Made by a program: the position numbers and the translations under genes | Source: Tenacibaculum sp. 190524A02b | GTDB taxonomy: Bacteria; Bacteroidota; Bacteroidia; Flavobacteriales; Flavobacteriaceae | Direction: 5' to 3' | NCBI RefSeq assembly: GCF_964036645.1 | Contig: NZ_OZ038525.1 | Location: 4,972,911 to 5,036,910 of the forward strand | Length of the DNA stretch: 64,000 nt | In this document: piece after piece, positions 41,935 to 44,139 of the stretch | How the letters are laid out: every line of letters begins with the position of its first letter | Numbering within the stretch: position 1 is the first letter of the stretch | Notes under the pieces: generated by a model | The model's database searches: none | What the model saw: only the letters and a program-made list of their open reading frames with translations | What the model was told of the DNA's origin: nothing

Positions 41935-42241
41935 TGCTTAAAATTTAGGATTAAATATACAGGAATAATTAGTATTAGTTAACATGATGTATATTTTTAA
42001 CTTAAAGTAATTAATTATCTGTTTTTCTCCGACTCTAGGAACTACCTTTGTTGAGTTAACAGAGGTGTCAACGACTTTCGCGGACGATTTTGTTGTGTTT
42101 TCATGATGAATATAGAGTGAGAATTCTTTAATTTTTCAGTTAAAGAGGAAAAGAAGAAATGGTTATACCGAAATTATTTATAAAGTTTTGTGACGTCCTG
42201 AATACTCGTTACAATAATTAATATATTAAAGGTAGTAATTT

Positions 42242-43066
42242 TTAAATTGCTACCTTTAGTTTTTTGTAGCTTTTTCTTTTGACTTTTTTTTGTTGGTGCA
42301 TTTGATTAGGAGTTAACATTGAATTTGATAAATGAGGTCTTATTTGATTGTAAATATTGATTGCATTTTTAATTAACTTCTTTTTAATTTGTATAGAAAC
42401 GTCGTATTTATCAATTGCAAATTCTTGTTTAAGAATCCCATTGATTCTTTCAGCTATAGCATTTTCATAAGGATCATATTTTTCAGTCATGCTAGGTTTG
42501 ATATTATTGATACTTAACATTTTTTGATATTCATTAGAGCAATATTGTAACCCTCTATCTGAATGATGAATAATAGGTTCTTTATTATAATTTCTATTAG
42601 AGATTGCCATATCTAGGGCTCTTAAAGAACCTGCTACATTTAAACTATTAGAGACATCATACCCCATTATTTTTTTAGAGTAAGCATCAGTAATTAGCGC
42701 TAAATAACATGGGTTTTCTCTCTTTCCAATGTAAGTAATATCACTCACCCATACTTGTTCAGGTCTTACAAATTCTATATTTTTAAGTTGATTTACATGT
42801 TTTCTAAATCTATGATGAGAATTTGTAGTTATATGATATTTTTTTCTTGGTAGAATTAATAAATTATTAGCTTTTAATATTTTAAACAACTTATCACGAC
42901 CAACACCAATTGCTTTTAATTCAGATTTTAAAAGATAAAATAATTTCCTTGTACCTATTCTCGGCATTGATATACGGATAGTATTTACTAAATCAATAAC
43001 CTTTTTACTAAGCTTTTGTTTCTCTTTATATGAATGAATAGCTCTATAATATACCTGCCTATTCAC
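42242..43066 (-). CDS. IS3-family transposase OrfB (DDE integrase part)
   Basis: A 274-residue rve-type integrase core, with the DDE residues in WVSDITYIG, IIHHSDRGLQYCS and ENAIAERINGILK, after a helical HTH_21 region (RIGTRKLFYLLKSELKAIG). The independent start would be a GTG at 43066, but the frame is open further upstream through YSQEAKESITATCDLLG, which is what a frameshift from OrfA would give. The functional product is therefore most likely the OrfAB fusion. Full length, no visible damage. Confidence 0.93.
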   Translation of the reverse strand: MNRQVYYRAIHSYKEKQKLSKKVIDLVNTIRISMPRIGTRKLFYLLKSELKAIGVGRDKLFKILKANNLLILPRKKYHITTNSHHRFRKHVNQLKNIEFVRPEQVWVSDITYIGKRENPCYLALITDAYSKKIMGYDVSNSLNVAGSLRALDMAISNRNYNKEPIIHHSDRGLQYCSNEYQKMLSINNIKPSMTEKYDPYENAIAERINGILKQEFAIDKYDVSIQIKKKLIKNAINIYNQIRPHLSNSMLTPNQMHQQKKVKRKSYKKLKVAI

Positions 43067-43089
43067 CCCGAGTAAATCACAGGTAGCTG

Positions 43090-43521
43090 TTATGCTTTCT
43101 TTGGCTTCTTGACTATATTTTTTGATAACTCGGGTACGTGCTTTTTTCTGATTGGAATATTAAATTCTTCTTCAGCAATATCAATCATCATATCAAAAAT
43201 GATGACTTTTTTATCAGCAAGCTCTGCTAAATATTCAGCACGTGCTTTTTGCTTTTCTAAAAGCTTGACTTGTTGCTCTAATTCTAAAATACGCTGTTCA
43301 GGTGTTTTTGACATGGTTTGATTTATACTAAAATCGTAATCAAATTTACCATATTTTTTTAACCAAGTACGAATCGTAGATCTTGCTTGAATACCATATT
43401 TATCAATCGCTTGAGTTCTGGTTAATAATCCTTGCTCAATCTCTTGAACAACTTGTAGTTTAAAGGACAAACTATAATCCTTTTGGGTTCGCTTTACATA
43501 ATCTGATTTCCTAGAATCCAT
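43090..43521 (-). CDS. IS3-family transposase OrfA (HTH part)
   Basis: A 143-residue helix-turn-helix protein: YSLSFKLQVVQEIEQGLLT, then RSTIRTWLKKYGKFD and a leucine-zipper-like stretch (PEQRILELEQQVKLLEKQKA). It binds the IS ends and forms the N-terminal part of the OrfAB transposase. Near its end the message contains a run of six A residues (minus strand, 43118-43123); a -1 slip there joins it to the OrfB frame (ELSKKYSQEAKES). Confidence 0.92.
   Translation of the reverse strand: MDSRKSDYVKRTQKDYSLSFKLQVVQEIEQGLLTRTQAIDKYGIQARSTIRTWLKKYGKFDYDFSINQTMSKTPEQRILELEQQVKLLEKQKARAEYLAELADKKVIIFDMMIDIAEEEFNIPIRKKHVPELSKNIVKKPKKA
43118..43123 (-). promoter_or_regulatory. Programmed -1 frameshift site (A6) of the IS
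   Basis: Six consecutive A residues in the orfA message, 28 bases before the orfA stop, at the point where the orfB frame becomes open; typical of IS3-family OrfAB synthesis. Confidence 0.7.
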
Positions 43522-43571
43522 AAAATAACTTTTAGTTGTAACGCTATTTTAGGACGGGACATTTCAAGAAA

Positions 43572-43646
43572 TAAAAAACCCACTCAAAAAATTGAGCGGG
43601 AAAATTGCTATGAAAAAGAAAAGAATCTAGGACGTCTCCTAGACCG
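43572..43646 (-). ncRNA. Predicted small RNA, copy A (about 75 nt)
   Basis: On the minus strand the unit runs from a promoter at 43651-43658 to a terminator. The RNA starts with a perfect 7-bp hairpin (TCTAGGA-GACG-TCCTAGA, 43626-43643), then a pyrimidine-rich linker containing TTCTTTTCTTTTTCATAGC, then a terminator stem CCCGCTC/GAGTGGG (43579-43600) with a U-run. In this copy the stem pairs only on the minus strand (G-U where the plus strand would have A-C), which fixes the direction. It shares about 180 bp of similarity with copy B. Confidence 0.65.
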
Positions 43647-43650
43647 AGTA

Positions 43651-43658
43651 CAAATTTA
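43651..43658 (-). promoter_or_regulatory. Predicted -7 element of small RNA copy A
   Basis: TAAATTTG on the minus strand fits TAnnTTTG. A TTTAAC word lies 22 bases further upstream (starting at 43681 in plus coordinates), at the same spacing as in copy B. Confidence 0.6.
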
Positions 43659-43725
43659 TACCAGTTAAGGCGTATGTTATGTTAAAAAAACTACTTTTTT
43701 GTATACCTAAAAACCCTGAACTTAA

Positions 43726-43745
43726 ACTAAGTGAAAACCCTTAGT
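43726..43745. promoter_or_regulatory. Palindrome upstream of small RNA copy A (proximal)
   Basis: ACTAAG-N8-CTTAGT, 75 bases upstream of the -7 element. A near-identical palindrome follows 75 bases further away. Confidence 0.5.
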
Positions 43746-43800
43746 TTGATTTTTGTTTTATTTTTAAGTGATTAATAATCAGTTTTAAATTTTAGGTTTA

Positions 43801-43820
43801 ACTAAGTGGAAACCCTTAGT
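43801..43820. promoter_or_regulatory. Palindrome upstream of small RNA copy A (distal)
   Basis: ACTAAG-N8-CTTAGT, differing from the proximal one by one base; 150 bases upstream of the -7 element. Confidence 0.5.
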
Positions 43821-43966
43821 TGGTTTTAGAATGGGTAAAATTAGTATGAATTCATTGTAGTTTTATTAGAAGAGTTTTTAGCATTCAGTAAATAAAAAAC
43901 TCTTTTTTTCTACAGAAGAATATTATAAGCATGAGTTGATAGTGATTTTAAGAAACCTTTTAGAAT

Positions 43967-44041
43967 AAAAAAACCCACTCAAAAAATTGAGTGGGAAAAT
44001 TGCTATGAAAAAGAAAAGAACCTAGGACGTCTCCTAGATCT
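43967..44041 (-). ncRNA. Predicted small RNA, copy B (about 75 nt)
   Basis: Second copy of the unit. The 5' hairpin is CTAGGA-GACG-TCCTAG (44022-44037), the linker again contains TTCTTTTCTTTTTCATAGC, and the terminator is a perfect CCCACTC/GAGTGGG stem (43974-43995) followed by seven U residues. The promoter is at 44046-44053. The linker is complementary to ATGAAAAAGAAAAGAA, the start of many lipoprotein and secreted-protein genes. Confidence 0.65.
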
Positions 44042-44045
44042 GAGG

Positions 44046-44053
44046 CAAATATA
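44046..44053 (-). promoter_or_regulatory. Predicted -7 element of small RNA copy B
   Basis: TATATTTG on the minus strand fits TAnnTTTG; the TTTAAC word lies 22 bases upstream as in copy A. Confidence 0.6.
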
Positions 44054-44119
44054 CAATAGTTTTTGAATGTAAAATGTTAAAATTACTTTTTTATGTATAC
44101 CTAATAACCCTAGTTTAAA

Positions 44120-44139
44120 GCTAAGGGGTTTTGCTTAGT
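44120..44139. promoter_or_regulatory. Palindrome upstream of small RNA copy B
   Basis: CTAAG-N8-CTTAG, 74 bases upstream of the -7 element, matching copy A in place. A degenerate second element (TTAAGGGTTTTCCCTAGG) lies at 44197-44214, 151 bases from the -7 element. Confidence 0.45.

Follow-up and report, generated by a model that had tools for sequence, protein, structure and literature searches.

A multicopy small RNA family of the Flavobacteriaceae, uncatalogued in Rfam 15, with a near-invariant linker and a proposed role at start codons

Two small RNA units and their surroundings

LhrC, Qrr and OmrA/B have their hosts in the Bacillota and Pseudomonadota, and to our knowledge few flavobacterial small RNAs (sRNAs) have a known function. 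The closest described system is FopS (RF04319), a set of paralogous Bacteroides sRNAs reported to bind the start regions of susC mRNAs and to block their translation; its consensus is printed as GTGTTTTTCATAGTATTAGA... and its seed is given as GUGUUUUUCAUAGUAUUAGA (PMC11697453). In Flavobacterium psychrophilum, the sRNA Rfp18 is described as conserved in the genus and linked to secreted proteases (PMC9723704), and the Bacteroidota are reported to be without Shine-Dalgarno sequences (PMC6847099). The RNA described here belongs to an sRNA family of Flavobacteriaceae that is uncatalogued in Rfam 15 and distinct by model from both Flavo-1 and FopS.

The window, that is, the whole stretch of 64,000 nucleotides analyzed from Tenacibaculum sp. 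190524A02b (the home genome below), holds two units on its minus strand: unit A (43571 to 43646, about 76 nt) and unit B (43967 to 44041, about 75 nt), both recognized from sequence, direct repetition, folding, and a covariance model, with ends estimated from the sequence. The initial annotation had described two minus-strand copies about 400 bp apart giving RNAs of about 75 nt, and this description holds: the units are direct repeats of 131 nt that share 79% identity and start 395 bp apart. Sequence and folding likewise bear out its account of the same parts in the same order. The TAnnTTTG promoter has its −7 box at 43651 to 43658 in unit A (TAAATTTG) and at 44046 to 44053 in unit B (TATATTTG), both on the minus strand, and the CTTTTTCATAGCAATTTT core follows the box by 32 nt in each. 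The 5′ hairpin reads GGUCUAGGA-GACG-UCCUAGAUU in unit A (43624 to 43645, with GACG as the loop and a helix that covaries across the family) and GAUCUAGGA-GACG-UCCUAGGUU in unit B (44019 to 44040). The pyrimidine-rich linker contains 20 conserved nucleotides, UUCUUUUUCAUAGCAAUUUU in unit A (43601 to 43620) and their counterpart in unit B (43996 to 44015), which are predicted to be unpaired and are the proposed seed. An intrinsic terminator closes each unit (43573 to 43600 in A, where a T run follows the stem, and 43967 to 43995 in B), with arms CCCGCUCAA..UUGAGUGGG and CCCACUCAA..UUGAGUGGG, respectively. The remark that the stem of copy A holds only on the minus strand was accurate, as its G-U pair corresponds to A-C on the plus strand. 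Exactly two hairpins are predicted for each unit. Unit A folds at −25.4 kcal/mol, where shuffled sequences average −11.3 (z = −5.83), and unit B at −25.8 kcal/mol, where they average −11.2 (z = −5.80); 0 of 200 shuffles were equally good. Covariance model R1 matches unit A at G000:C1:5016484-5016558 (93 bits, E 1.8e-14) and unit B at G000:C1:5016879-5016953 (97.7 bits, E 2.1e-15).

In the Rfam/Infernal search that had been suggested as a check, no Rfam 15 family reached its gathering score in the window, nothing rose above threshold over either unit, and at E ≤ 10 the units gave sub-threshold matches only. Two of these were considered and rejected: L10_leader (E 0.006, but 29.7 of the 44 bits required) and Ref84 (31.5 of 52 bits), whose alignments both rest largely on the terminator. 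Several spellings of the 20-nt core had no match in the literature searched, in which the family is not recognizably described, and the label "undescribed" thus stands. The suggestion that Flavo-1 (RF01705) cannot be excluded does not: this small RNA of flavobacteria, as which it resembles the present one, has no match at its gathering score of 42 bits nor over the units at E ≤ 10, and it is ruled out because the same library detects it in another locus, L096, but not here. That locus is a Polaribacter contig carrying Flavo-1 at 2649-2735 as well as a unit of the present family and RNase P RNA. FopS was likewise rejected, the window being unmatched at its gathering score of 56 bits and the units at E ≤ 10; as a positive control, the FopS model found 9 of 9 FopS loci at 73.6 to 82.3 bits. 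The family could still be one of the F. psychrophilum Rfp RNAs, which were compared by their published description (PMC9723704).

The region around the units has further elements. An imperfect palindrome, AACTAAGTGAAAACCCTTAGTT, is present twice without strand assignment (repeat D3, 43722 to 43752 and 43797 to 43827) and may be an operator; a related element was seen by eye upstream of unit B at about 44107-44136. Imperfect palindromes of the form AACTAAGTG(A/G)AAACCCTTAGTT with a GGTATAC box, recognized partly by eye, lie upstream of both window units, and related ones, again partly by eye, upstream of another tandem pair in the home genome (1083835/1084188). Such palindromes may be operators of a dedicated regulator. 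Directly beyond the terminator of unit A sits an insertion that resembles the IS3 family (about 42191-43564; orfA 43521-43090 and orfB 43066-42242; family and ends judged by eye); its two ends read TGTCCCGTCCT and TGTGACGTCCT, and 3 bp (TTT) appear to be duplicated. Among the nearest open reading frames (ORFs) of 18 home-genome copies, a transposase was recognized by eye only near the window pair. The adjacency of the tandem pair to IS3 is as first described, while the element looks incidental to the RNA units and not part of their system, and the pair itself, 2 of about 17 copies, is more than a local one.

Copies, covariation, and distribution

The home genome (5.04 Mb, one contig, with the window at its end) is probably a Tenacibaculum by sequence as well: its DnaJ and rnpB have their highest identity to an uncultured Tenacibaculum record (88.0% and 91.6%), and a Polaribacter DnaJ reaches the same bit score at 83.7% identity. 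It has 15 clear copies by nucleotide search; model R1 finds 15 at E < 1e-4 and 18 at E ≤ 1, and model R2 finds 17 at E ≤ 0.01. Besides the window pair there are two more tandem pairs, at 836220/836452 and 1083835/1084188. The TAnnTTTG motif precedes all 13 exact-core copies but none of 5 divergent ones. Three weak relatives (L066, L067, and L068, at 90300, 1846677, and 771965) differ in the 5′ hairpin and have changed linker sequences (TTTTCATATTTCAATTTT, TTTCATAGCGCAATTTTT, and TTTCATAGCAATTATTT), and perhaps represent subfamilies with shifted targets. The extra copies in Tenacibaculum would raise the dose or add separate controls.

Covariation was assessed in two alignments. In one of 101 sequences fitted to the model, which leans toward the model's own structure, both partners have changed in 18 of the 19 pairs; the covariation score there, 0.690, compares with 0.192 for shuffled and at most 0.134 for slid alignments. 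In a free MAFFT alignment of 21 sequences, both-side changes occur in 7 of 19 pairs and the score is 0.232 against 0.123 shuffled; further pair types, one of five measures, do not exceed shuffles there (119/500). While both stems vary, the same linker, UUCUUUUUCAUAGCAAUUUU, recurs unaltered in 37 of the 44 distinct copies that the model found, a set that includes paralogs from one genome and copies used in model training. The 44 derive from 48 given loci by removal of 4 context duplicates; 42 are tabulated, and L066 and L067, with no linker match within six substitutions, are counted as different. The match in L089, with six differences, is a chance one and not the real linker of that RNA.

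Within the genus, a nucleotide match at E ≤ 1 is present in 146 of 146 genomes (weak in one, G040, at E 0.085), and model R2 at E ≤ 0.001 finds 1 to 16 copies in each of 76 genomes out of 76. Among 249 genomes of Flavobacteriaceae, the covariance model is positive in 231, from 174 of the 186 genera sampled; 196 of the positive genomes carry a single copy, as counted from the model R2 table. Because this sample is spread over 186 genera, the fraction 231/249 is too high as an estimate for genomes at large if big genera such as g2 mostly lack the RNA or fall below threshold. In g2, model R1 matched only G228 among nine genomes (G166, G170, G201, G212, G228, G285, G297, G313, and G317) and model R2 matched neither of two, and presence or recognition of the RNA thus does not extend to every genus; in g2 it has been either lost or has diverged. 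A phylum sample gave matches by model R1 in 11 of 198 genomes, all members of the family. A class sample with model R2 at E ≤ 0.05 added five genomes outside the family (L314-L318), of which four look spurious on reading. The exception, L315, has CTCTTTTTCATAG immediately before an intrinsic terminator and may be a remote RNA built in the same way.

The exact 20-nt core, in a search blind to core variation, occurs in at least 118 stretches with a named source, mostly Flavobacteriaceae. The carriers listed include Tenacibaculum, Polaribacter, Maribacter, Winogradskyella, Mesonia, Aquimarina, Flavobacterium, and Myroides, together with some metagenome-assembled genomes (MAGs) that bear broader labels; among the matches listed, the records named Flavobacterium with a unit are L103, L118, L140, L172, L175, L190, and L195. 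The TAnnTTTG motif accompanies 98 of the 113 named core matches among those listed, a number that excludes 7 at locus edges and includes six non-units without a terminator (L130, L146, L170, L186, L191, and L206). One MAG labeled Saprospiraceae, and thus outside the family by label, holds a complete unit with promoter (L187), which reflects either mis-binning or a true out-of-family copy. The exact core also appears in 14 viral contigs (L291-L304). In at least 10 of these, among them L291-L296, L300, L301, L303, and L304, the unit looks complete by eye, terminator included, so phages or prophages carry the RNA, as is reported for FopS. An identical variant unit lies behind a recombinase-like ORF in Tenacibaculum caenipelagi (L152) and in a viral contig (L304), which suggests that this variant sits on an integrated element.

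The RNA is thus multicopy and found across most of the Flavobacteriaceae, far beyond chance, and it is near certain that the family is real. The covariance model from relatives that had been called for yielded both conservation across most of the family and covariation, and the earlier view of these units as small RNA genes with a selected function agrees with their conservation in genus and family and with their covarying stems. The attributes generally expected of an sRNA, namely a promoter of its own (by motif), a predicted intrinsic terminator, and conserved structure, are all present. Because the RNA occurs in 174 of 186 sampled genera and keeps a 20-nt stretch nearly fixed while its stems change, it is likely to be central to physiology.

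Complementarity to start sites

Through its center, UUUUUCAUAG, which is reverse-complementary to CUAUGAAAAA, the linker can cover a start codon. Start regions of the home genome are A-rich, with no G-rich block, and such A/U-rich regions make matches to UUUUUCAU common in any case. A conserved 16S motif was absent from the home-genome stretches examined, and pairing with rRNA was covered through the genome-wide search alone. This search, at up to 2 mismatches, found no perfect 14-nt site outside the RNA copies and 31 non-RNA matches, all with 2 mismatches, against 30 for the reversed pattern. The start regions of 870 ORFs (1.26 Mb, simple ORF calling) were compared with shuffled linkers. A match that is 8 nt or longer and includes the AUG occurs at 111 of the 870 starts versus 13.6 with shuffled linkers, 1% of which reach the real count. 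At 9 nt or more the excess in these ORFs is not clear, as 5 to 14% of shuffled linkers reach the real counts. With UUUUUCAU held fixed and at least 10 nt required, the real flanks match 5 ORFs versus a shuffled mean of 26, and 89% of shuffles reach 5. The best start match in the home genome is 12 nt, at a lipoprotein-like ORF. Since neither the linker flanks nor the two-mismatch search gives an excess, there appear to be no extended targets at home.

Of 119 family genomes taken as relatives, 108 contain the 14-mer ATTGCTATGAAAAA, counting its occurrences in RNA copies. Sixty such sites were fetched from at least about 150; those coinciding with model matches were mostly omitted, and the set also excludes the sites of G250, G341, G365, G377, G396, G399, and G418 and one each from G403 and G420. 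The sixty comprise 11 RNA copies, 25 sites at ORF starts, and 24 elsewhere. An AAAA directly upstream, which lengthens the match from 14 to 18 nt, is present at 11 of the 25 starts versus 1 of the 24 non-start sites (p 0.0019). The controls here are non-start sites and other ORF starts: in the named loci, the same AAAA precedes 57 of the 773 ORF starts (p 1.3e-6 versus the 25 starts) and 3 of the 59 that begin with ATGAAAAA (p 4.9e-5). In the home genome it precedes 30 of 870 ORF starts and 1 of the 89 beginning with ATGAAAAA.

The 25 start genes include MsrB (L425) and MsrA (L460), from different genomes, and a homologous pair whose products resemble lipoproteins (L433 and L445); a Pfam scan of 20 of them left 9 without any family. 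By a crude score, hydrophobic N termini are encoded by 22 of the 25, compared with 61 of the 89 home ORFs beginning with ATGAAAAA, a difference that is not significant (p 0.07). Four loci (L431, L442, L466, and L483) have by eye a 14-nt linker-complement match inside an ammonium-transporter-like gene, probably a case of coding conservation.

Proposed action, rival readings, and comparison with FopS

With moderate confidence, we regard the RNA as a trans-acting antisense repressor at the start sites of exported-protein genes; its matches fall on start regions of secreted or surface-like genes, and therefore it probably lowers their translation. In such a scheme, each copy would be transcribed from its own housekeeping-type promoter and ended by its own terminator, and the 5′ hairpin would cap the RNA, its sequence free to vary as long as pairing is kept. 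The unpaired 20-nt linker would be the working part, pairing with mRNAs that begin AUUGCU-AUG-AAA-AA (putative target start sites AAAAUUGCUAUGAAAAA), and by covering the start codon it would block initiation in bacteria that have no Shine-Dalgarno signals. The likely targets would be mRNAs of secreted proteins and lipoproteins, comparable to the susC mRNAs of FopS. The computations show the gene structure, its copy number, conservation and covariation, the synteny with dnaJ, and the complementarity to start codons in relatives; from these we infer transcription, repression, and a physiological signal.

A different possibility, which we consider unlikely though worth keeping in mind, is that the linker chiefly binds an abundant RNA-binding protein, as a sponge or store, and that its complementarity to start sites is a by-product of U-richness. 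Twenty nucleotides unchanged in 37 of 44 copies exceed what a base-pairing seed usually needs, the multicopy design fits titration, and the linker flanks show no extra complementarity to start regions at home. The start-specific lengthening to 18 nt in relatives argues the other way, as does the same UUUUUCAU core in FopS, which is reported to pair with mRNAs (PMC11697453). Moreover, a search of the home genome for two candidate binders found neither: RRM_1 proteins number 0 at E ≤ 0.001, with a Bacteroides control genome positive, and Hfq was not found, with a positive control genome search.

We think it distinctly improbable that the RNA is instead tied to its neighbors, with a stress-linked role at the grpE-dnaJ operon or rnpB, for instance, acting on RNase P or a chaperone mRNA. 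Among the matches listed, dnaJ lies directly upstream on the same strand in 87 of the 113 named ones; RNase P RNA (RF00010, by Rfam) lies just downstream of the unit in L005, L096, L101, and L117; and in F. psychrophilum grpE-dnaJ is grouped with groES-groEL, dnaK, htpG, and lon under promoter motif SM4, as described in PMC9723704. Against such a tie stand the TAnnTTTG promoter that most of the listed units have for themselves, the location of 11 of the 13 exact-core home copies, window pair included, away from dnaJ and rnpB, and the result that the home dnaJ-rnpB region has no linker-complementary site except the two RNA copies there. Tandem copies, the adjacent IS3, and the viral contigs with a unit would suit a mobile or selfish repeat spread by insertion sequences and phages without a host function; we give this very little credence in view of the constant dnaJ-linked position across genera, the compensatory evolution, the retained promoter, and the single transposase recognized by eye among 18 home copies. 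That intrinsic terminators are common in A/T-rich genomes might even invite a reading of the units as untranscribed terminator-like repeats conserved by chance or sequence bias, which the covariation, the distribution over the family, the near-fixed linker, and the folding z of about −5.8 make scarcely credible.

Antisense repression at start sites, the reading we prefer, poses a testable question: how do sRNAs find start sites without Shine-Dalgarno sequences and without Hfq or an RbpB-type protein, the latter two as far as searched here? The RNA family is in addition a new marker for annotating Flavobacteriaceae genomes.

Among described sRNAs, LhrC, Qrr, and OmrA/B also combine several copies with one conserved seed (PMC11697453). 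Rfp18, conserved in its genus like the present RNA, is reported to pair through a third stem-loop, whereas the present RNA has two stem-loops (PMC9723704). The likeness to FopS goes further. Both RNAs are about 65 to 75 nt long with a TAnnTTTG-type promoter, a terminator, and a single-stranded conserved stretch; both share the seed core UUUUUCAU(A)G, complementary to AUGAAAAA; both are multicopy, with 14 copies reported in B. theta (PMC11697453) and about 17 here; and both families are present in viral contigs. Fifty-three viral contigs (L238-L290) carry the FopS 20-mer, and in 16 of them, by eye, the match is not FopS but its antisense, placed as a gene start; this start, AAATCTAATACTATGAAAAATCTAATTATTGC, is fully complementary to the FopS seed and belongs to a signal-peptide-like gene that may be one and the same in related viruses. 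As an exact pattern the FopS 20-mer occurs in 0 of 198 phylum genomes and thus provides no bridge between the two families. The seed of FopS is at its extreme 5′ end with no 5′ hairpin, whereas the flavobacterial RNA places a covarying 5′ hairpin before the linker; after the core, FopS continues UAUUAGAUUUAAGG and the flavobacterial RNA CAAUUUUCCC; and the FopS partner RbpB is an RRM_1 protein, of a kind absent from the home genome as searched. We would suggest, tentatively and at rather less than even confidence, that the dnaJ-linked core RNA of most Flavobacteriaceae is a general anti-start-codon regulator of exported proteins and that, together with FopS, it represents a Bacteroidota seed class complementing the start codon and a lysine-rich leader (UUUUUCAUAG), as opposed to the C-rich anti-Shine-Dalgarno seeds found elsewhere.
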